Shown: in pieces, positions 7,246 through 29,261 of the stretch
Layout: the number at the start of each line of letters is the position of its first letter
Numbering within the stretch: the stretch's first letter is position 1
From: Acidilobaceae archaeon
Lineage (GTDB): Archaea > Thermoproteota > Thermoprotei_A > Sulfolobales > Acidilobaceae
DNA length: 64,000 bases
NCBI GenBank assembly: GCA_026413755.1
Contig: JAOAKH010000001.1
Coordinates: 1 to 64,000, forward strand
Direction: 5' to 3'
The notes under the pieces: model-generated
Database searches by the model: none
Seen by the model: only the letters and a program-made list of their open reading frames with translations
Told to the model about the DNA's origin: nothing
Program-made: the position numbers and the translations under genes

Positions 7246-7692
7246 TTATAGCCTATCTGTCCTCTGTGACGTGATCCTCTCCAGCTCCTCTATAGAGCAG
7301 TGAGGGGGTTCCTGCGACAGCGCCAGTTCCATCCCCAGCTCCGCAGATATCTCGGCCAAGGAGGAGCTCACTCCCCTCTCAGGCCCCACGACCACTATGG
7401 ATCGGAACTCGGCGACGCTCTCTATCACGTCCTTTATTTGTTTGAGGCCCAGTAGGTTCATGACAAACAGTATAGACCTGTTCTTCACCCTTGCCCCCAT
7501 CTGCAGATCCTCCAAGACGTAGAGGTATGCAAGGGCCGCAGCGCAGGGACTCACACTTCTCGGGAGGCCCGCCATGAGCACGGACTCGTTTGGAGAGCGC
7601 AGTGGCCTAGCCCGAAGGGGCTCGTCGAACATTACACGGAGAACTTCTAACCTACCCCCTCCGGCCTCTATCACGGAGATGGTCGCCCTCAA
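7246..7692 (-). CDS. Probable KEOPS subunit Cgi121
   Basis: The KEOPS complex makes the t6A modification at A37 of tRNAs reading ANN codons; Cgi121 binds the Bud32 kinase and tRNA. The 148-residue protein has the central Cgi121 pattern: an Ala/Leu-rich helix, then NRSILFVMNLLGLKQIKDVI, matching the family's EILxxxSGxRQIxxAI, then a hydrophobic strand IVVVGPE. Similarity is moderate and judged by eye. The start ATG overlaps the stop of the MoaD-phosphoribosyltransferase gene by four bases. Another KEOPS subunit, Pcc1, is at 54013. Alternative: an unrelated small hypothetical protein. Confidence 0.55.
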   Translation of the reverse strand: MRATISVIEAGGGRLEVLRVMFDEPLRARPLRSPNESVLMAGLPRSVSPCAAALAYLYVLEDLQMGARVKNRSILFVMNLLGLKQIKDVIESVAEFRSIVVVGPERGVSSSLAEISAELGMELALSQEPPHCSIEELERITSQRTDRL

Positions 7693-8408
7693 CCCTTCCT
7701 GGACCTCTCGTATTCATTAACTCCCCATGGGAAGACGAGCCAGCTGTCTGTGCTCTCTGCATAGTAGTCGGGCACGAGCCTCGTCCAAGGCTTCACGTAG
7801 AGGGTAGCAGTCTTCACGCCCGCCGGCAGGTGATGCTCTATGTAGTCCAGGGCGAGCTGCAGCGTGAGACCCGTGTCGCTCACGTCGTCCACTATGAGCA
7901 CGTTCTTGTCCTTCACGTCTAGTAGAAGAGGTTGTCTAAGGAAAGGCCTCTCCCTTCTCGCGTTTGGGGCTGTGTACAGCTTTACCTCTATAACGCCCAC
8001 GTCCTCTACCCCCAACATGTCCGCTATGACTATGGCAGGCACCGCTCCGCCTCTCAGTATACCGACTATCACCTCTGGCACATAGCGCGATTCCCTCACG
8101 CGCTCCGCCACGACCGATGAGGCTCTCACTACCTCCTCCCAGGAGAGGAACCTCACGCTGCCCCCGTGGACTATGGGGAGCAGGATCACCTCCCTGGCAG
8201 GCCCGTCCTCCGCCAGCCTGTAGTCCACGCCGTCCACGAAAACCATGTACGCCGGCGCGGGGTCTCCGTTGGGCTCAATGGCTTGAGAGAGCGCGCTGTT
8301 GTCCCTCAGCTTTTTCAGTGCCTCCCTCCAACTATCGGCCTCCACCTCTATTACTTCTCTCCCTACTAGCTGCGTGAGCTGTCCTAGTAGCCTTACCCTA
8401 ATTAGCAC
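7689..8408 (-). CDS. MoaD/ubiquitin-like domain fused to a phosphoribosyltransferase
   Basis: This 239-residue protein combines two families. Residues 1-83 are a beta-grasp MoaD/SAMP-like domain: it starts MLIRVRLLGQLTQLVG, as MoaD does, and ends LPIVHGG, the MoaD C-terminal di-glycine motif. Residues 85-239 form a type I phosphoribosyltransferase with the PRPP loop VLIVDDVSDTGLTL (about 170-183) and an Arg-Gly-Gly stretch near 119, similar to archaeal hypoxanthine/xanthine-guanine PRTases. The di-glycine lies exactly at the junction. A GTG codon at residue 85 (8154-8156) could allow separate translation of the PRTase. It is followed in an operon by the Cgi121-like gene. Function of the fusion is unknown. 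Confidence 0.75.
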   Translation of the reverse strand: MLIRVRLLGQLTQLVGREVIEVEADSWREALKKLRDNSALSQAIEPNGDPAPAYMVFVDGVDYRLAEDGPAREVILLPIVHGGSVRFLSWEEVVRASSVVAERVRESRYVPEVIVGILRGGAVPAIVIADMLGVEDVGVIEVKLYTAPNARRERPFLRQPLLLDVKDKNVLIVDDVSDTGLTLQLALDYIEHHLPAGVKTATLYVKPWTRLVPDYYAESTDSWLVFPWGVNEYERSRKG

Positions 8409-8420
8409 AGGAGGACACCG

Positions 8421-8657
8421 CTATATCTCTTCTGGCAACTCCTCCTCCTTCTTCGCGGCACCTCTTCTCTTCAGCGCCGCATTAACTGTGTGGGTTATGT
8501 AGCCCGCTATCTGGTTCCTTAGCTTCTTGCTCTTCAGCTCTAGCAACTGTCCTACGACGCGTTTGTTATGCTCGAAGTCTCCAGTTAACACGTCCGCATA
8601 GGTTTCCAGAAGCTTTCTGGCCGTCCTCTTCACCAGGGAGCTCCTAACCCTTCCCAA
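8421..8657 (-). CDS. rps17e: Ribosomal protein S17e
   Basis: Small-subunit protein shared by Archaea and Eukarya. The 78-residue sequence starts MGRVRSSLVKRTARKLLETY and continues with FEHNKRVV and SKKLRNQIAGYITH, the conserved core of the family; the tail is Lys/Glu-rich. Length is normal for archaea. It lies between the thermosome gene upstream and the MoaD-PRTase gene downstream, all on the minus strand with short spacers. Confidence 0.95.
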   Translation of the reverse strand: MGRVRSSLVKRTARKLLETYADVLTGDFEHNKRVVGQLLELKSKKLRNQIAGYITHTVNAALKRRGAAKKEEELPEEI

Positions 8658-8706: not shown

Positions 8707-10356
8707 TTAGTCCTCCTTCTTCTCCTCTTCCTTCTCCTTCTTCTCCTTCTCTTCCATCCTCTTCGCGGCTATTAGGTCGTCTATCCTCAGTATGAGCGAC
8801 GCAGCCTCTGTGCCTGCCTTCAGCGCGTTGACCTTCACTCTAGCGGGATCGAGTATGCCGGCTTCCCAGGTGTCTATGAGCCCTCCAGTCTCCACGTCTA
8901 TACCGAGGAAAATGCCCTCAGGCCTCTCGTGGGCGCTCCTTAGCTTCACCAGGACATTTATGGGATCGTGGCCAGCATTGAATGCTAGGATCTGGGGAAT
9001 AGCCTCCAGAGCTCTCGCGAAGGCCTCCACGGCTAGCTGAGTCTTGCCCGGCAGGGTCCTGGCGTACTCGTAGACGTCCTTGGCTAGCTCGGCCTCGGTG
9101 GCTCCAGCGCCCCCTACTACGGCCCTGTCCATTAGCGTGTCAGCAACTGCACTCAGAGCGTCGTGAAGGGCCCTGTCTGCCTCGTCCACGAGCCTCTCAA
9201 AGCCTCCCCTAACCACTATCGTAACGCTCCTGAGGTTCTTTGCCCCCTCTACGAAGACCATCTTGTCCTCTCCCACCCTCCTCTCCTCTACCAGCTCAGC
9301 ATATCCCAGGTCCTCAGGCGTCATGTCCTCTATGTCGGTCACTATCTTAGCTCCCGTAGCCCTCGCGAGCTTCTCTATGTCGCTCCTCTTAACCCTCCTC
9401 ACCGCCAGGATGCCCTTCTTAGCCAGGAAGTGCTGCGCCACGTCGTCTATGCCCTTCTGCGTTATGACGACGTTGGCGCCCGTGGCAGCTATTTTCTCTA
9501 CTTTTGCAGCGAGTATTTTCTCTTGCTTCTCCATCAGCTTCCTTACGAGATCGGGGCTGGAGATGCTGATCTCCAGGTCTATCTCGGGCTTCTCTATCTC
9601 AAGCGGAGCGTCGAGCAGGGCTATCTTGGCATTCTCCACCCTCTTGGGCATATCGGGATGAACTATCTCCTTGTCGAGGACTATGCCCCTCACCAGCTGA
9701 GTGTCAAGGAGGCTACCGCCATGCTTCTTTATGATCTGTATATTGCCTAGGTCTACATACCATCTGTCGCCCCTCCACTCCGCTACAGCTCTTACGGCCT
9801 CTACTGCGAGGTTTGCGAAGTGCTCCTTTGCCTCCTTCACGGCCTTGCTGTTAAGGCTAGTTATGGCCACCTTCTTTAGAATTTCAACGTCGTCTATCGT
9901 GACGCGCCTAGATGCCTCCTGCAGCCTCTTGAGGGCTCTCTCCAGGGCTAGCTTGTAGCCCTCAATGATTATGGTTGGGTGTATGTTCTTCTCTAGCAGC
10001 TTCTCCGCCTCCTTTATGAGCTCCCCTGCAAATATAACTGCAGTCTTGGTGCCGTCCCCTGCCTCCTCGTCCTGGCCTTTTGCGATCTGCACTAACATCT
10101 TCCCTGCAGGGTGCTGCAGGTCCATTTTGTCGAGGATAGTAGCGCCGTCGTTCGTCGTAGTTATGTCACCCAGGCTGTCTACCAACATTTTGTCCATGCC
10201 TTTGGGACCGTAGGTTGTCTTCAAGATCTCAGCTATGGCCCTCACTGCCATAGCGTTCGCTCTGAAAGCCTCCCTGCCATAGGTCCTGCTGGTGCCCTCC
10301 TTCAGTATTATTACTGGTATGCCCACGGACTCTGTAGTGGGAAGCCTAGAGGCCAT
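8707..10356 (-). CDS. Thermosome subunit (group II chaperonin)
   Basis: ATP-dependent protein-folding chaperonin in the cytosol. From the ATG at 10356 it is 549 residues, the usual size. Motifs include [13 protein letters not shown], the ATPase signature [14 protein letters not shown] and GDGTKTAVI, plus the C-terminal family motif [20 protein letters not shown]. The C-terminus is a charged Lys/Glu tail rather than the Gly-Met repeats of some homologues. The open frame runs further upstream to 10743, but that part is the antisense shadow of the Fap7 gene. GGAGGGGTGGTGAT precedes the ATG and a strong TATA box lies at 10405-10412. High expression is expected. Confidence 0.97.
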
Positions 10357-10440: not shown

Positions 10441-11037
10441 ATGAGCGAGTTCATACTCCTGATCACCGGCTCTCCTGGCGTGGGCAAAAGCGCCACCGCA
10501 AGGGCACTGGCAGAGGAGCTGGGCTGCGTAAGCGCGGAGGAGAAGGAGGTCCTCTCGAGGGCCCTCGTCGAGGACCTCACGGGAAGAGATGCCATGGTAA
10601 TAGAAGAGGAGAGGGCTCGACAGGCGATCAGAGAGTTTGTGGAGAGCGTGAGGGATTGTTACGTGGTGAGCACCCTGCATCCAGAGCTCTGGGTTAGCGC
10701 GGCAGAAGAGCACATAGCTGTAATAGTCCTGCTCCGAGTGCACCCAAAGGAGCTAATGAGAAGGCTCCTGGCGCGGGGCTGGGGGAGAAGGAAGGTTGTG
10801 GAAAACGTGCTGGCGGAGGCCTTCAACGTGATCGCGGAGGAGATAGTTATGGAAGACATGGACAGCTTCACGGTGGAGCTAGACGCTACGGCTTGGAGCT
10901 CTCCTCAGGTCTCCGAGGTGATCGAGAAGCTCAGTTCTTGGGACGTGGGGGTGAGGCTCGACTGGCTCTCCGACCCTGAGGCGCTCGAGCTCGCCTCTAG
11001 GTTGACCAGGGAGCTGGACCTGTACGAGGGCAGGTAG
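10441..11037 (+). CDS. Fap7/adenylate kinase 6-like NTPase
   Basis: Broad NMP kinase/ATPase which in eukaryotes and archaea also helps late maturation of the small ribosomal subunit with uS11. The 198-residue protein has the P-loop GSPGVGKS at about residues 11-18 and the family's characteristic block HPKELMRRLLARGWGRRKV (about 101-119), followed by ENVLAEAFNVI. The ATG at 10441 has GAGGGGG upstream; the frame opens earlier at a TTG, but that region contains the divergent thermosome promoter. The 3' end overlaps the convergent HerA-like gene by 159 bases, an unusually long overlap. Confidence 0.88.
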   Translation: MSEFILLITGSPGVGKSATARALAEELGCVSAEEKEVLSRALVEDLTGRDAMVIEEERARQAIREFVESVRDCYVVSTLHPELWVSAAEEHIAVIVLLRVHPKELMRRLLARGWGRRKVVENVLAEAFNVIAEEIVMEDMDSFTVELDATAWSSPQVSEVIEKLSSWDVGVRLDWLSDPEALELASRLTRELDLYEGR

Positions 11038-12555
11038 AGGGCTCGTAACAGTCTGAACGAGAGCCTCTCCGGGCCTTATTTTGTCTAGCATATCTACTAG
11101 CTCTTTCCTAAGCCCCATAGTCTGTGCTATGACCTCCTTGTCGCGGGAGCTCCTGAGCGCGTGAACCACCTTACTGTTGGTGTTCAGCAGCACCCCGTTC
11201 GGAACGTGGGCTGGAGATTGCGTAGCTATGGCAAGCATTATGCCGTACTTGCGGCACTCAGAGAAGAGCTGCTCCACGAACGGAGACTCCTCGCCTCCGA
11301 GGACGTTATGTGCTTCATCTATGGCTATTAGTACCCTAGGGCCTCTGACGCCTGAAGACCTCTCCACAAAGAGCTTTGACAGGAAGAAGAGTACGTAGGA
11401 CTTTCTGGCTATGACGTTGTTTATGGCGTCCACTCTGACGACAATTATGCCAGAAGTCTCGAGGGGAGAGCTCTCCTTGAAAGCTCTATAGGAGCCCCTT
11501 GTAAGCATGGATATCTTTCTCAGCAGCGCCCTCTTCACCTCCCTGTCCCACTTCGACTCCTCCGGCAGGTCGTCCACAGCTTCTTCTAGCTCCCTGAGCG
11601 AGTTTGTCCTCCTTCTCTCCAGCGCCCTCATTAGCATGTATGCCTGCGGGGGCGTGAGGGAGAGCGCTTTCATTGCGACGCTTACTAGCGCGTCTACGTC
11701 CTGTATGTCAAGGGGGTTAATGGAGGCCTCCCCCCTCATGGGATCCCTCTCTATGAACGAGACCCCCCTCTCCCTTAGCAGCGAGGCGTGTTCTCCTGTC
11801 CAGTCAAACAGTATCACGGGGATGCCGAGCTCCTCCCAAGCTCTCTGCGCGATAACGGAGAGCGTGGTGGACTTGCCAGAACCCGTGGAGCCGAAGATCC
11901 CCACATGACCCTCTAGGTCTTTTGACCTGATTTGGAAGCTCTGAGGGGTAGGGGAGTCCAAGATCTCCCCTAGCGTAAAGCCCTCGCCTCTTGACGTGCG
12001 AAAGGGCCTCTCCCCTATCGAGTTGTCGGAAAGTAGCAAAGTGCCCCTCGAGTGGAGGCCGAGGCGGTGAAGGGAGGCAGCAAGCACCCTAAGCTCCTCC
12101 CCCTCCGCCTCGCTGACCCTCACGCCGTCCACAAGACTGGAGAGAAGGGTCTTAAGGACCTCCGCCTCTATATGTAGGACCTTCTTGTCGCGAGAGGAAA
12201 GTATCAGAAGGGACCTCCTCAGTTCCCCCTCCATGACCGAGACCAGGGCAAACCTGACGTTGCTTTTGTGAGCCCTATCTACTACCACCTTTGCGAGCTC
12301 CCTGCCCACCTCCTCCTTGCCCCCCCTTACTTCGATCTCTAAAGCCTTGTAGTCCCCCTCCTCCCCTCCCTCCCCTCTGCGAAGGCTCGGGAAAGGGAGG
12401 GGGAAGCGTAGGAAGAGCGCAAGGAGCAGCAGAGAGACGAAGGTCGCGGCGAGGAAGAGGTACTTCAGCTCTATTATCCCTAGGATGTAAAGGGAGAGCA
12501 GCAGAGCAGCTAGAGCGGGCAGCAGCCTCAGTGGCCATGGGACTTGGTCTAGCAT
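10879..12555 (-). CDS. Membrane-anchored HerA/FtsK-type ATPase
   Basis: Hexameric translocase-like ATPase. The N-terminus has two hydrophobic segments (about residues 8-27 and 31-50), then a cytosolic domain. Walker A is GSTGSGKSTT near residue 224 and Walker B is VLIAIDEAHNVL near residue 409; QSP motifs (ATQSPAHVP) follow as in HerA/VirB4 proteins. Archaeal relatives include DNA-end resection HerA and conjugation-like ATPases, but the membrane anchor and the lack of a nearby NurA nuclease argue against classical HerA. The last 53 residues are encoded opposite Fap7 and look unlike a conserved domain, so the real C-terminus may have been extended by loss of a stop codon. Confidence 0.8.
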   Translation of the reverse strand: MLDQVPWPLRLLPALAALLLSLYILGIIELKYLFLAATFVSLLLLALFLRFPLPFPSLRRGEGGEEGDYKALEIEVRGGKEEVGRELAKVVVDRAHKSNVRFALVSVMEGELRRSLLILSSRDKKVLHIEAEVLKTLLSSLVDGVRVSEAEGEELRVLAASLHRLGLHSRGTLLLSDNSIGERPFRTSRGEGFTLGEILDSPTPQSFQIRSKDLEGHVGIFGSTGSGKSTTLSVIAQRAWEELGIPVILFDWTGEHASLLRERGVSFIERDPMRGEASINPLDIQDVDALVSVAMKALSLTPPQAYMLMRALERRRTNSLRELEEAVDDLPEESKWDREVKRALLRKISMLTRGSYRAFKESSPLETSGIIVVRVDAINNVIARKSYVLFFLSKLFVERSSGVRGPRVLIAIDEAHNVLGGEESPFVEQLFSECRKYGIMLAIATQSPAHVPNGVLLNTNSKVVHALRSSRDKEVIAQTMGLRKELVDMLDKIRPGEALVQTVTSPLPALVQVQLPGQPRGELERLRVGEPVEPHPHVPRTELLDHLGDLRRAPSRSV

Positions 12556-25495: not shown

Positions 25496-27121
25496 GTGAA
25501 GTACGACGCAGCAGTAATAGGCGGCGGGCACAACGGGCTAGTTGCAGCTTGTTACCTTGCAAAGCACGGCCTGAGGGTGGGGCTTTTCGAGAAAAATAAC
25601 TTCCTCGGCGGTATGGCGGCCAGCCCGGAGCTCTGGCAGGGCTTCAAGGTGCCGCTGGGGGCATATGTGCTTAGCCTGTTCAGCAGGAGCATAGCCAGCG
25701 AGCTGGGGCTCTTTGAAAGGGGGCTAAGGCTCATTCCCAAGGAGCCCGGTATGACGGTCCTCCTGCCAGGGGGGAGGACCATATCTTCGTGGTCGGATCT
25801 GGAGAAGATGAGGAGGGAAATAGCGCGCTTCTCAGAGAGAGACGCAGAGAGGTACTTAGAGTGGAGCAGGACTTGGGAGCTCGTAGGGGAGGTGCTCGAC
25901 TACATATACTCCAGCCCTCCCATGAGCCTCCCGGAGGCTCTAGAGGTGGCAAGCAAGGCGACCAGGTTCGCCTCTAGCCTCGGCCTGGGCTCTCTCGTAG
26001 AAGATTTGCCGAGGCTGCTCCTCTCGCCCGCCTCCAGGCTCCTGGACGAGTTCTTCGAGAGCGAGGAGGTGAAGGCTCTCCTCGTGGAAGATGCGCTAGT
26101 GGGCGAGCTCGTGGCCCCTAGCTCCCCCGGCTCCGCCTTGGTCATGGCTCACCACTACATGGGCGCCATAACCGGCAAGAGAGGTCAGTGGGCATATGTG
26201 GCGGGGGGCATGGGGGCCCTCTCTGAAATACTGGCCCAGATCTGCAGGGAGCTCGGCGTGGAGGTCCACCTGGGGGCTAGAGTGGAGGAGATAGTGGTGA
26301 AGAACGAGAAGGTGGAGGGCTTGAGAGTAAACGGAAAGCTGGTGGAGGCCCCGAGGGTCCTGAGCACCGTCGACGCGAGGGTCACGCTGCTGGGTCTAGT
26401 GAAGGACATAGAGAAGGGGCTTGCCAGGAGGCTGAGGGCGCTGAGGTCCGTGGGGGCCTCCTCTAAGCTGATCATAGCATCAAGGGGCCTCCCGAGGCTG
26501 AAAGAGGAGTACAGGGGCGCAGCAGACAAGATCTTCTCCTCCTCAGCCCTAGTGCTCGAGAGCGTGGAGTATGCTGAGAGGGCCTACCGGGAGGCCCTCG
26601 TGAAGGGCTTCAGCAGCGAGCCCTGGATGTCAATAAACACCCAGAGCTACGTAGATCCCAGCGTTGCGCCGGAGGGCTGGCACATAATTTCGGTCTTCAT
26701 GCAGTACACGAGGAACGACGTGCCGGGAGGCTGGGAGGGGAGGAGAGAGGAGCTCAGGGCAAGGGCCCTCGAGACCCTTTCGCGCTACTTCGAAGACCTG
26801 AGGGCAGAGAAGTTCCTGCTCCTCGTGCCCGCGGACTACGAGTCCCTCTTCGGGGCACCGGGCGGTCATATATTTCACCTCAGCATGACGCCTGACCAGC
26901 TCTGGGTCAGCAGGCCCCTTCCAGAGCTCTCCCACTACAGGACGCCCATAAAGGGCTTGTACCTAGGCGGGGCCAGCTGTCACCCCGGGGGAGGAGTTAC
27001 AGGAGTTCCGGGCTACCTGGCCGCCAAGGCTCTGTTAGAGGACGCGGGGGTCATAAGGCAGAGGAGGGTCAGCTTTACCGGTCTTGTGCTGGACAGGATA
27101 AAGAGAAAGATACGCCTCTAG
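25496..27121 (+). CDS. FAD-dependent oxidoreductase of the phytoene desaturase/PYROXD2 type
   Basis: The 541-residue protein starts with a dinucleotide-binding motif VIGGGHNGLVAACYLAKHG and a conserved EKNNFLGGMAAS. The C-terminal family motif is GLYLGGASCHPGGGVTGVPG near residue 490. This is the CrtI/NAD(P)-independent amine-oxidase-like group. Archaeal members without carotenoid genes around are usually of unknown substrate; no crtB or crtY is next to this one, so carotenoid desaturation is not supported. The GTG start has GGGGCCAGGT upstream. The 3' end overlaps the convergent E1-like gene by four bases. Confidence 0.82.
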   Translation: MKYDAAVIGGGHNGLVAACYLAKHGLRVGLFEKNNFLGGMAASPELWQGFKVPLGAYVLSLFSRSIASELGLFERGLRLIPKEPGMTVLLPGGRTISSWSDLEKMRREIARFSERDAERYLEWSRTWELVGEVLDYIYSSPPMSLPEALEVASKATRFASSLGLGSLVEDLPRLLLSPASRLLDEFFESEEVKALLVEDALVGELVAPSSPGSALVMAHHYMGAITGKRGQWAYVAGGMGALSEILAQICRELGVEVHLGARVEEIVVKNEKVEGLRVNGKLVEAPRVLSTVDARVTLLGLVKDIEKGLARRLRALRSVGASSKLIIASRGLPRLKEEYRGAADKIFSSSALVLESVEYAERAYREALVKGFSSEPWMSINTQSYVDPSVAPEGWHIISVFMQYTRNDVPGGWEGRREELRARALETLSRYFEDLRAEKFLLLVPADYESLFGAPGGHIFHLSMTPDQLWVSRPLPELSHYRTPIKGLYLGGASCHPGGGVTGVPGYLAAKALLEDAGVIRQRRVSFTGLVLDRIKRKIRL

Positions 27122-27864
27122 CGAATCCTTGAGCGGCACTCCTCGCAGCTCATATGCTTGAGGGCTATCTCGTCTATGGCAGGCCTCCTCGCGTCCACAA
27201 CTATGAGCTTGTTGTACGCAGGCTCCCCTATACCTGTCATGACCTTCAAGGCCTCCATGACCTCTATTGAGGCCACGATCCCAACGGTAGGCGCCACTAC
27301 CCCGCTACAGCCCCGTTCTGCGGGGGGCTTTGGGGCTATGCAGGCAAGACAGTTGCTCCTCCCGCGCTCCACGACGGTGACCTGTCCGTAGTACCTCTCT
27401 GCCGCCCCATGCACCAGGGTCTTCCCCTTCTCCCAAGCATACTGATCTAGCACTAGCCTTGACCTCCACTCGTCGAGGCCGTCCATTATGATATCGGCGC
27501 CCTCCAGGACTTCTTCTGCGTTCTCCTCCGTTACCCTTTCCTCGTAGCTCTCCACCTCCACGAGAGGGTTGAGAGCAGCTATCCTTTCTGCCGCTGCCCT
27601 CGCCTTGGGTCTACCTATGTCGCTCGTGCTGTAGAGTATCTGTCTGTTCAAGTTCTCAAGCCCCACTTTGTCGGGATCTATAAGTATGAGCTTTCCCACG
27701 CCGAGCGCAGCGAGGTAGAGCGAGATGAGGCTCCCGAGGCCTCCCAGGCCCACCACTGCCACCCTTGAGCCTAGGAGCCTAATCTGACCCCCTGCTCCCA
27801 GGAGGGGGAGTTGGCGGGAGTACCTCACTATGTCTATCTTGTCTAGGCTCACTCCCTCACCCAC
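27118..27864 (-). CDS. E1-like adenylyltransferase (MoeB/ThiF/UbaA family)
   Basis: Activates the C-terminal Gly of a ubiquitin-like sulfur carrier by adenylation. The 248-residue protein has the Rossmann motif VAVVGLGGLGS, then NLNRQILY, DIGRPKA, and a GLDEWRSR stretch near the ATP site. The catalytic Cys is probably in RGCSGVVAPTVGIV, and two CxxC pairs (CLAC, CEEC) make the zinc site. A single archaeal E1 usually serves SAMP conjugation, tRNA thiolation and molybdopterin synthesis. The MoaD-like domain fused to a phosphoribosyltransferase at 7689 could be one of its clients. It overlaps cysS by 16 bases. Confidence 0.92.
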   Translation of the reverse strand: MGEGVSLDKIDIVRYSRQLPLLGAGGQIRLLGSRVAVVGLGGLGSLISLYLAALGVGKLILIDPDKVGLENLNRQILYSTSDIGRPKARAAAERIAALNPLVEVESYEERVTEENAEEVLEGADIIMDGLDEWRSRLVLDQYAWEKGKTLVHGAAERYYGQVTVVERGRSNCLACIAPKPPAERGCSGVVAPTVGIVASIEVMEALKVMTGIGEPAYNKLIVVDARRPAIDEIALKHMSCEECRSRIR

Positions 27865-29261
27865 TCCGTCTTATCCTTGTAGTCCAAGAGCCTTATGCCC
27901 ACCCTCTGGAGCCTCTCCCTTATGGCGTCCGAGAGGTCGTAGATCTTCCTGGCCCTCAGCTCCGACCTCACCTCCACGAGCAGGTTTATGAGCTCCGTCT
28001 CCAGCCTGGCGCTGCCCTCCCCTAGCATGATGTCGTCCAGCACGGCGTACACCCTGTTGAACTCCTCCAGCATCTTGTATGCGTACAGCAGCACTGCTTG
28101 GCTCTCGCTGGCCTCCAGCTCCCTGTAGTACAAGTTAGTCAGCTCCCACACGCTGCTCATGGCGGCCCCGAAGTTGAAGTCGTTGCTCATGCTCTCGTGC
28201 CAAGCGCCGTGCGCAGCCCTTAGCATCTGCAAAAGCCTCATATCGCCCTCCTTTAAGTAGTGGGAGGGCTCCCTCGTAGCGAGCCTCCTCTGGAGCCTCT
28301 CTGCCACGTCCCTCAGCCTCTGGTATAGCCTTGAGGCCTGCTCCAGCCCGCTCTCGCTGTAGTCTAGGTTGCTCCTGTAGTGGGAGCTCAGCAACCAGAG
28401 TCTCAGGACCCTAGGCCCCCACCTCTTTGCTGCCTCCCTGAAGGGGATTATGTTGCCCAGGCTCTTGCTCATTTTCTCCCCAGATATGGTAAGATATGAG
28501 ACGTGCATCCAGTACCTCACCCAGGGCCTTGAGCCAAAGTACGCCTCGCTCTGCGCCCTCTCGTTCTCGTGATGCGGGAAAACCAGATCTACCCCTCCTC
28601 CGTGGATGTCTATTCGGGAGCCGAGGTATTTGCTGCTCATGACGCTACACTCTATGTGCCACCCCGGCCTGCCCCTCCCCCAGGGGCTCTCCCAGCTGGG
28701 TTCGCCGGGCTTTGCGGCTTTCCAGAGCGCGAAGTCGTATGGGTTCTTCTTCTCCTTCACATGCTCCTCTTGCCTCCACGCCTCCTTGTTGAGGGCGCCG
28801 CTTAGCCTACCATAATCTGGGAAGCTGTCCACATCGAAGTAAACGCTGCCGCTCTCAGCGACGTAGGCGTGCCCCTTCTCTATCAGCCCCTTCACGAACT
28901 CGACTATCTCCGCTATGTGATCCGTTACCCTAGGGTGAACGTCGATCCTTATGCTCAGTGCCCTCAACATCTCCATGTAGTCCTTGGTGTACTCTTCTGC
29001 TACTTCTCTCCAGTCTCTCCCCTCTTCCTTTGCCCTATTTATTATCTTGTCGTCTATGTCGGTGATGTTTTGCACATGATATACAGAGTAGCCCCTCAGG
29101 TTCAAGTACCTCTTTATCGCGTCGAACGAGGCAAAGGTCCTGGCGTGGCCTATGTGGGTGTAGTCGTACGGAGTGGGGCCGCAGGTGTACATGCCTACAA
29201 AGGGGGGACTCGCTGGAGAGAAGTGCTCTAGCTTCCTCCCCAGCGTGTTATATACGTACAC
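27849..29261 (-). CDS. cysS: Cysteinyl-tRNA synthetase
   Basis: Charges tRNA-Cys. Class I synthetase of 470 residues with the HIGH motif in [12 protein letters not shown] near residue 31-42 and the KMSKSLGN loop near 268. Zinc ligands are visible in [14 protein letters not shown] and [12 protein letters not shown]. The C-terminal half has the DALR-type helices ([14 protein letters not shown]). Length is normal. The presence of CysRS means the organism can charge Cys directly rather than only by the SepRS/SepCysS route. The start GTG at 29261 is close to a TATA-like ATATA stretch; nearby starts are possible. Confidence 0.96.

Follow-up and report, generated by a model that had tools for sequence, protein, structure and literature searches.

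An archaeon of the Acidilobaceae encodes, in one open reading frame, the ubiquitin-like protein Urm1 with its diglycine end retained and, directly behind it, a predicted purine phosphoribosyltransferase. This two-domain fusion is real, and we read it, with a probability of roughly two in three, as a precursor in the style of the ubiquitin fusions, from which Urm1 and the enzyme would be released by a JAMM metalloprotease cutting after Gly83. The gene lies in a 64-kb stretch of DNA (64,000 nucleotides, hereafter the window), where a reading of the open reading frames shows positions 8408 to 7689 of the minus strand as a single open frame of 239 codons. The features on which the argument rests, all on the minus strand of the window, are the following.

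7689-8408 (-): Urm1-phosphoribosyltransferase fusion gene, 239 amino acids; GTG start at 8408-8406, stop at 7691-7689
8160-8405 (-): Urm1-like beta-grasp domain, residues 2-83 (NF053661 over residues 4-83; AlphaFold; Foldseek)
8160-8168 (-): His-Gly-Gly motif, residues 81-83, with proposed cleavage after Gly83 (invariance across relatives)
8154-8156 (-): in-frame GTG (Val85), potential internal start, not conserved (sequence and relatives)
7692-8147 (-): predicted purine phosphoribosyltransferase domain, residues 88-239 (PF00156; PDB 1vdm, 4trb, 4z1o)
7869-7895 (-): PRPP-binding loop IVDDVSDTG, residues 172-180 (sequence and alignment A2)
7246-7692 (-): small open reading frame, 148 amino acids, overlapping the fusion stop by 4 bases; Cgi121-like by hhalign
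8421-8657 (-): ribosomal protein S17e, directly upstream of the fusion (PF00833; synteny)
8707-10350 (-): thermosome subunit; the listed frame reaches 10743, the upstream extension being probably not coding
10879-12555 (-): HerA-like ATPase of the same conserved neighbourhood
27121-27870 (-): E1-like activating enzyme of the ThiF/MoeB/Uba4 type (PF00899, 228.8 bits)

Domains and neighbourhood of the fusion gene

The front half of the protein (residues 1-83) is closed by LPIVHGG (residues 77-83). It had originally been labelled MoaD-like, a label that we replace: the NCBIfam model Urm1_like (NF053661) covers it end to end over residues 4-83 (E 2e-8), Pfam ThiS gives no match to this domain even at E 10, the tail is HGG and not PPxGG, the locus is that of Urm1, and the MoaE of this genome sits on another contig, fused to a MoaD of its own. 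The NF053661 score of 34-37 bits lies below the curated cut-off of 70 bits; among the families compared, which carry f numbers (the window's own is f1), only f11 reaches that cut-off, since the stand-alone Urm1 proteins of f2, f3, f4, f8 and f10 likewise fall below it. Sulfolobus acidocaldarius was the only control genome matched by the model. Modelled alone with AlphaFold, the domain is predicted with confidence (pLDDT 94.7) as a beta-grasp fold closest to SAMP1 and Urm1 structures, with Foldseek matches to SAMP1 (3po0, E 3.6e-5), Chaetomium Urm1 (7q5n, E 1.8e-4), Sulfolobus solfataricus Urm1 (4wwm, E 3.7e-4) and Urm1 6yuc. Residues L11, F57, G60, D62, R64, P78, H81, G82 and G83 are invariant in the alignment of the window's family, and all 22 Urm1 sequences aligned from different families share HGG. 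Profile, predicted fold and conserved gene neighbourhood identify the front domain as the Sulfolobales orthologue of Urm1. In Sulfolobus and Saccharolobus, Urm1 has a free end that reads HGG (not PPxGG) and is linked through its diglycine to lysine residues in many proteins (PMC4569737, PMC12625751).

The back domain matches PF00156 over residues 88-239 (E 6.6e-24), and V173, D174, D175, S177, D178 and G180 of its PRPP loop are invariant in alignment A2. By sequence and fold, the nearest solved structures to this half are Pyrococcus 1vdm and two from S. solfataricus, 4trb of the adenine type and 4z1o of the hypoxanthine-guanine-xanthine type. Profile, alignment and structure matches agree on a phosphoribosyltransferase fold with a PRPP loop, and the domain is predicted to be a type I (PF00156) purine phosphoribosyltransferase of the HGXPRT/APRT type. 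In the AlphaFold model of the whole fusion (mean pLDDT 90.9, pTM 0.65) each domain is well folded.

Synteny in the compared loci places Urm1 in a neighbourhood of rpS17e, a HerA-like ATPase and the thermosome, and in f11 genomes a free urm1 directly follows rpS17e. Such a neighbourhood is described for Sulfolobales URM1 homologues in the passages of Makarova and Koonin that treat them (PMC2948915). The E1-like enzyme, originally placed at 27118, is indeed present at 27121-27870 and scores 228.8 bits against ThiF; no second enzyme of this kind was found in the genome. Immediately downstream of the fusion, the frame at 7246-7692 has no Pfam hit; it aligns by hhalign with the Urm1-fused Cgi121 domains of other lineages (probability 94.5, E 8.1e-8, 73 columns), has a counterpart downstream in most family members and is probably a divergent Cgi121-like protein of the KEOPS complex. 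Cgi121 has been reported as absent from Sulfolobales and Desulfurococcales.

The junction in relatives and the origin of the fusion

A homologue search for the fusion and its Gly-Gly, covering 98 relatives, yielded 43 fused loci in the window's family, the window included, and HGG is kept in every one of them. The original proposal of a fused two-domain frame with a retained internal Gly-Gly is thereby borne out, and the same architecture occurs in a public Acidilobaceae metagenome-assembled genome (JANXEI010000002.1). Between the Gly-Gly and the next invariant residue (Trp90) the 43 loci carry a linker of 5-15 residues with little conserved sequence. The GTG noted just past the junction does exist (8156-8154, codon 85, in frame with the fusion) and recurs two codons past the Gly-Gly in the congener G001. 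In 24 of the 43 fused loci, however, the stretch from the Gly-Gly to the invariant Trp contains no ATG, GTG or TTG, and a start codon of the enzyme's own, as originally suggested, is thus not conserved. Where Urm1 and the phosphoribosyltransferase (prt) are split, the two glycine codons (GGT GGN) also form a Shine-Dalgarno-like sequence (GGTGG) for prt; of the 11 split genes, 9 use GGT for the first glycine, against 10 of the 43 that are fused (Fisher p 0.0006), which indicates that the ribosome-binding-like signal has faded. In at least 10 family genomes, four of them single-contig assemblies at 99% completeness (G017, G024, G026, G032), a search at E 1e-5 retrieved nothing Urm1-like besides the fusion, and hence no other source of free Urm1 was found there.

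In two congeners of the window's genome, G002 and G003, a frame difference separates the two genes, and Urm1 ends in HGG-MLGG-stop and HGG-VFGG-stop, respectively; the other three congeners, like the remainder of the family, have the fusion. A frameshift-type split in close relatives had been named beforehand as evidence against the fusion: the split is there, but the other congeners are fused and the Gly-Gly is strictly conserved. These two genomes are also what an error that erased a stop codon between two genes would have in its favour. Such an artefact of sequencing or assembly has a negligible probability and is ruled out by the relatives, since dozens of genomes assembled independently, several as a single contig, have the fused frame open; the same architecture at 43 loci is no assembly accident. 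The Urm1 genes of families f8, f10 and f4 have their stop codon right behind HGG, with prt directly after it, and in two f15 genomes an in-frame Urm1/prt pair is parted by TAA. From these outgroup and f15 states, the two-gene order is likely ancestral and the loss of the stop codon derived.

Urm1 tails, MoaD-MoaE fusions and JAMM proteases

The genome of the window holds one JAMM/MPN+ protein, a candidate protease of the desampylase type.

Contig C5, 14611-14979: JAMM/MPN+ desampylase-type candidate protease (PF14464, 50.9 bits; NF041370, E 1.4e-9)

Its motif HTHPSCPPVPSALD has an intact E and HxH...SxxD, and its match to NF041370, the haloarchaeal desampylase model, is weak, lying below the cut-off of that model. 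With a profile built from the family, each of the 18 family genomes of at least 95% completeness yielded a JAMM, and the E and HxH...S..D motif is intact in those family sequences that were aligned. The same profile corrects a first impression from PF14464 alone that JAMM is absent in the Sulfolobaceae-like f11: divergent copies exist there, and those aligned show the motif HTH..PS..D.

Other families, too, add residues behind the HGG of Urm1. Besides the phosphoribosyltransferase that follows it in f1, f5 shows four short tails and a single Urm1-Cgi121 fusion, in which PF09138 and PF08617 each pass their cut-off. In genera g54-g56 of f2, a Cgi121-like domain continues nine of the Urm1 frames; PF08617 passes its cut-off in G139, and the others have a lower score or none. 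In part of f3, Urm1 bears tails of 2-14 residues past HGG.

Urm1-Cgi121 fusions with internal SHGG, in f5 and f2: L169:1691-2539 (-); L195:2074-2877; L199:2272-3159 (-); L200:1112-1972; L201:1500-2378

The original prediction also raised the idea that sulfur transfer is tied directly to purine salvage; nothing was found in its support, and no such tie is indicated, since the partner elsewhere is simply the next downstream gene and Urm1 is fused to the KEOPS subunit Cgi121 in other lineages.

JAMM was found in 59 of 66 genomes with any residues after the HGG of Urm1, including all 21 such genomes outside f1 (Cgi121 fusions and short tails), as against 12 of 33 genomes in which Urm1 ends exactly in HGG-stop. 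The association is significant by Fisher's test, with related genomes treated as independent and shared ancestry ignored (p 8e-8 over all genomes, 1e-6 outside f1, 0.0017 for genera outside f1). The seven genomes with post-HGG residues and no JAMM are drafts of 55-92% completeness; the fused G036, at 92%, gave no JAMM hit. A safe statement from these comparisons is that at least three lineages lost the Urm1 stop codon separately, all of them with JAMM. JAMM also accompanies exact HGG ends in f11 and in some f2 and f3 genomes, which is consistent with a separate deconjugating role.

The association is confounded, because MoaD-MoaE fusions in the same lineages could alone explain the presence of JAMM. 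These fusions are mostly present in f1, f3, f5 and f2 g54-g56 too, and they track JAMM as well, which weakens the idea that Urm1 fusions are all that JAMM follows. Their junction keeps PPxGG in f1, G063 and f2 g54-g56 and an equivalent Gly-Gly end in f3 and f5; the internal Gly-Gly is retained at L087 (contig C45:57752-58081) and at other loci of f1, f3, f5, f6 and f11. Four f7 genomes (G053, G072, G082, G097) have lost the Gly-Gly of their MoaD-MoaE fusion and have no JAMM, whereas in their relative G063 the Gly-Gly is kept and a JAMM gene adjoins both the MoaD-MoaE fusion and E1. This contrast is informative, and JAMM may be kept for the MoaD-MoaE substrate as well. Family f6 has a MoaD-MoaE fusion with Gly-Gly, yet no JAMM was detected in it. 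The free MoaD/SAMP1-like protein of the window's genome (L089:991-1272, minus strand) ends in PPASGG-AA-stop, and its last two residues would likewise have to be trimmed off.

The precursor reading, its rivals and known systems

We infer that the gene product is a precursor in which Urm1 is followed directly by the purine phosphoribosyltransferase. The desampylase-type JAMM/MPN+ metalloprotease would cut after His81-Gly82-Gly83, exposing a diglycine end of Urm1 that the E1 could adenylate for urmylation, tRNA thiolation or both, and the enzyme would be released with a short N-terminal tail. The stop codon between adjacent, co-oriented urm1 and prt, downstream of rpS17e, would have been lost in the family ancestor, a loss that we propose was tolerable because the protease was present. 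Of the three options originally offered for the junction, putative processing at the Gly-Gly is the best, given an HGG kept at all 43 loci and the co-occurrence with JAMM. Whether the principle extends further is, in our estimate, an even bet: a JAMM desampylase may free ubiquitin-like genes of the Sulfolobales from a stop codon directly after the Gly-Gly, Urm1 being repeatedly made as a precursor, fused to a co-transcribed neighbour or with short tails, and in f1 the entire Urm1 pool would be proteolytic in origin, in fixed ratio to a metabolic enzyme.

The main rival, which we consider unlikely, is a stable fusion acting in cis, in which Urm1 would be a permanent, gene-encoded urmylation that regulates the activity, oligomerization or turnover of the enzyme, and the Gly-Gly would be kept for structure or recognition. 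Reversible linkage through HvJAMM1 and SAMP1 reportedly regulates an enzyme (PMC4443979), and the model of the fusion, with both domains well folded and a pTM of 0.65 for the whole, suits this idea. However, a plain linker would not be expected to keep HGG invariant in an unstructured tail while the stretch after it varies, several complete genomes offer the fusion as the only Urm1 source found, other lineages join Urm1 to another partner or give it short tails of unrelated sequence, and two congeners are split.

Internal initiation, giving the full-length fusion and a phosphoribosyltransferase begun at the GTG at 8156, is improbable: that codon in the window and G001 and the Shine-Dalgarno-like GGT GGN of the split relatives speak for it, but over half of the fused relatives (24/43) have no start codon before the enzyme, the signal has faded where the genes are fused, and the Urm1 end would still not be freed. 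It is hardly plausible, finally, that the Urm1 half is a degenerate passenger with a relic Gly-Gly and that only the enzyme matters; its score below the curated Urm1 cut-off would fit decay, but the free Urm1 of other families also scores below 70 bits, nine residues including the HGG are invariant in the family, and the domain folds confidently.

The favoured reading, a precursor cut after Gly83, has precedents. In eukaryotic ubiquitin fusion genes, ubiquitin is joined to ribosomal proteins (RPS27A, UBA52). There as here, the ubiquitin-like protein is the N-terminal half joined to an unrelated working protein, with a diglycine at the junction and, in several of the genomes compared here, no free copy found; unlike there, the components are Urm1 and a purine phosphoribosyltransferase (Cgi121 elsewhere), the candidate protease is a JAMM enzyme rather than a cysteine deubiquitinase, and cleavage is putative. 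MoaX of M. tuberculosis is cut after Gly82, and this cleavage is needed for function (PMC4326299); a Deinococcus JAMM is reported, as cited in PMC11237513, to cut MoaD-MoaE; and Caldiarchaeum JAMM-type proteases cut the precursors CsUb-pre and CsSAMP, CsJAMM acting on the latter (PMC6043591). On the strength of these precedents we therefore take the gene to encode a putative JAMM-cut precursor. In MoaX and other MoaD-MoaE fusions a beta-grasp domain is likewise joined at Gly-Gly to the next protein, but their partner is a direct client of the sulfur carrier, whereas the partner here has no known use for one. The Caldiarchaeum precursors share with the window's gene that an archaeal ubiquitin-like protein is made with residues past Gly-Gly; CsUb-pre has a 9-residue tail, whereas the fusion carries a whole enzyme. 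Urm1 of S. acidocaldarius and Saccharolobus islandicus resembles the front domain in synteny (S17e, HerA-like, thermosome), HGG end and beta-grasp fold, but stands alone and ends exactly in HGG. A thaumarchaeal fusion of a ubiquitin-like protein to Cgi121 near rpS17 (PMC2948915) also joins such a protein to a neighbouring function, and the f2 and f5 Urm1-Cgi121 fusions embody the same idea; the partner in the window differs, and the passages of PMC2948915 on these fusions do not tie them to JAMM processing.

Our literature search found no published report of a Urm1-phosphoribosyltransferase fusion, which does not prove that none exists. The principle itself is already known; what is new is the partner, the repeated fusion of Urm1 to operon neighbours and the association of tails with JAMM. 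The gene would be the Urm1-lineage counterpart of the ubiquitin fusion genes, formed as the stop codon between two adjacent genes was lost, with intermediate states of its origin still visible in living relatives. It would also give a testable reason for the presence of JAMM in archaea that lack E2 and E3 enzymes, namely the making of modifiers besides their removal, and the states of Urm1 tails and fusions could serve as an evolutionary assay for JAMM substrates.

Two minor observations concern the surroundings of these genes. In the window and its congeners G001 and G003, the thermosome gene is co-oriented with rpS17e and urm1, but it points the other way in G017, G018, G024, G066 and G050, which suggests a local inversion in the window's genus. 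Some g14 genomes carry a second JAMM-like gene near a short E1-like gene (L137 on contig C5 of G018; L145 on contig C57 of G035), a pair that possibly represents a separate ubiquitin-like conjugation or defence cluster.
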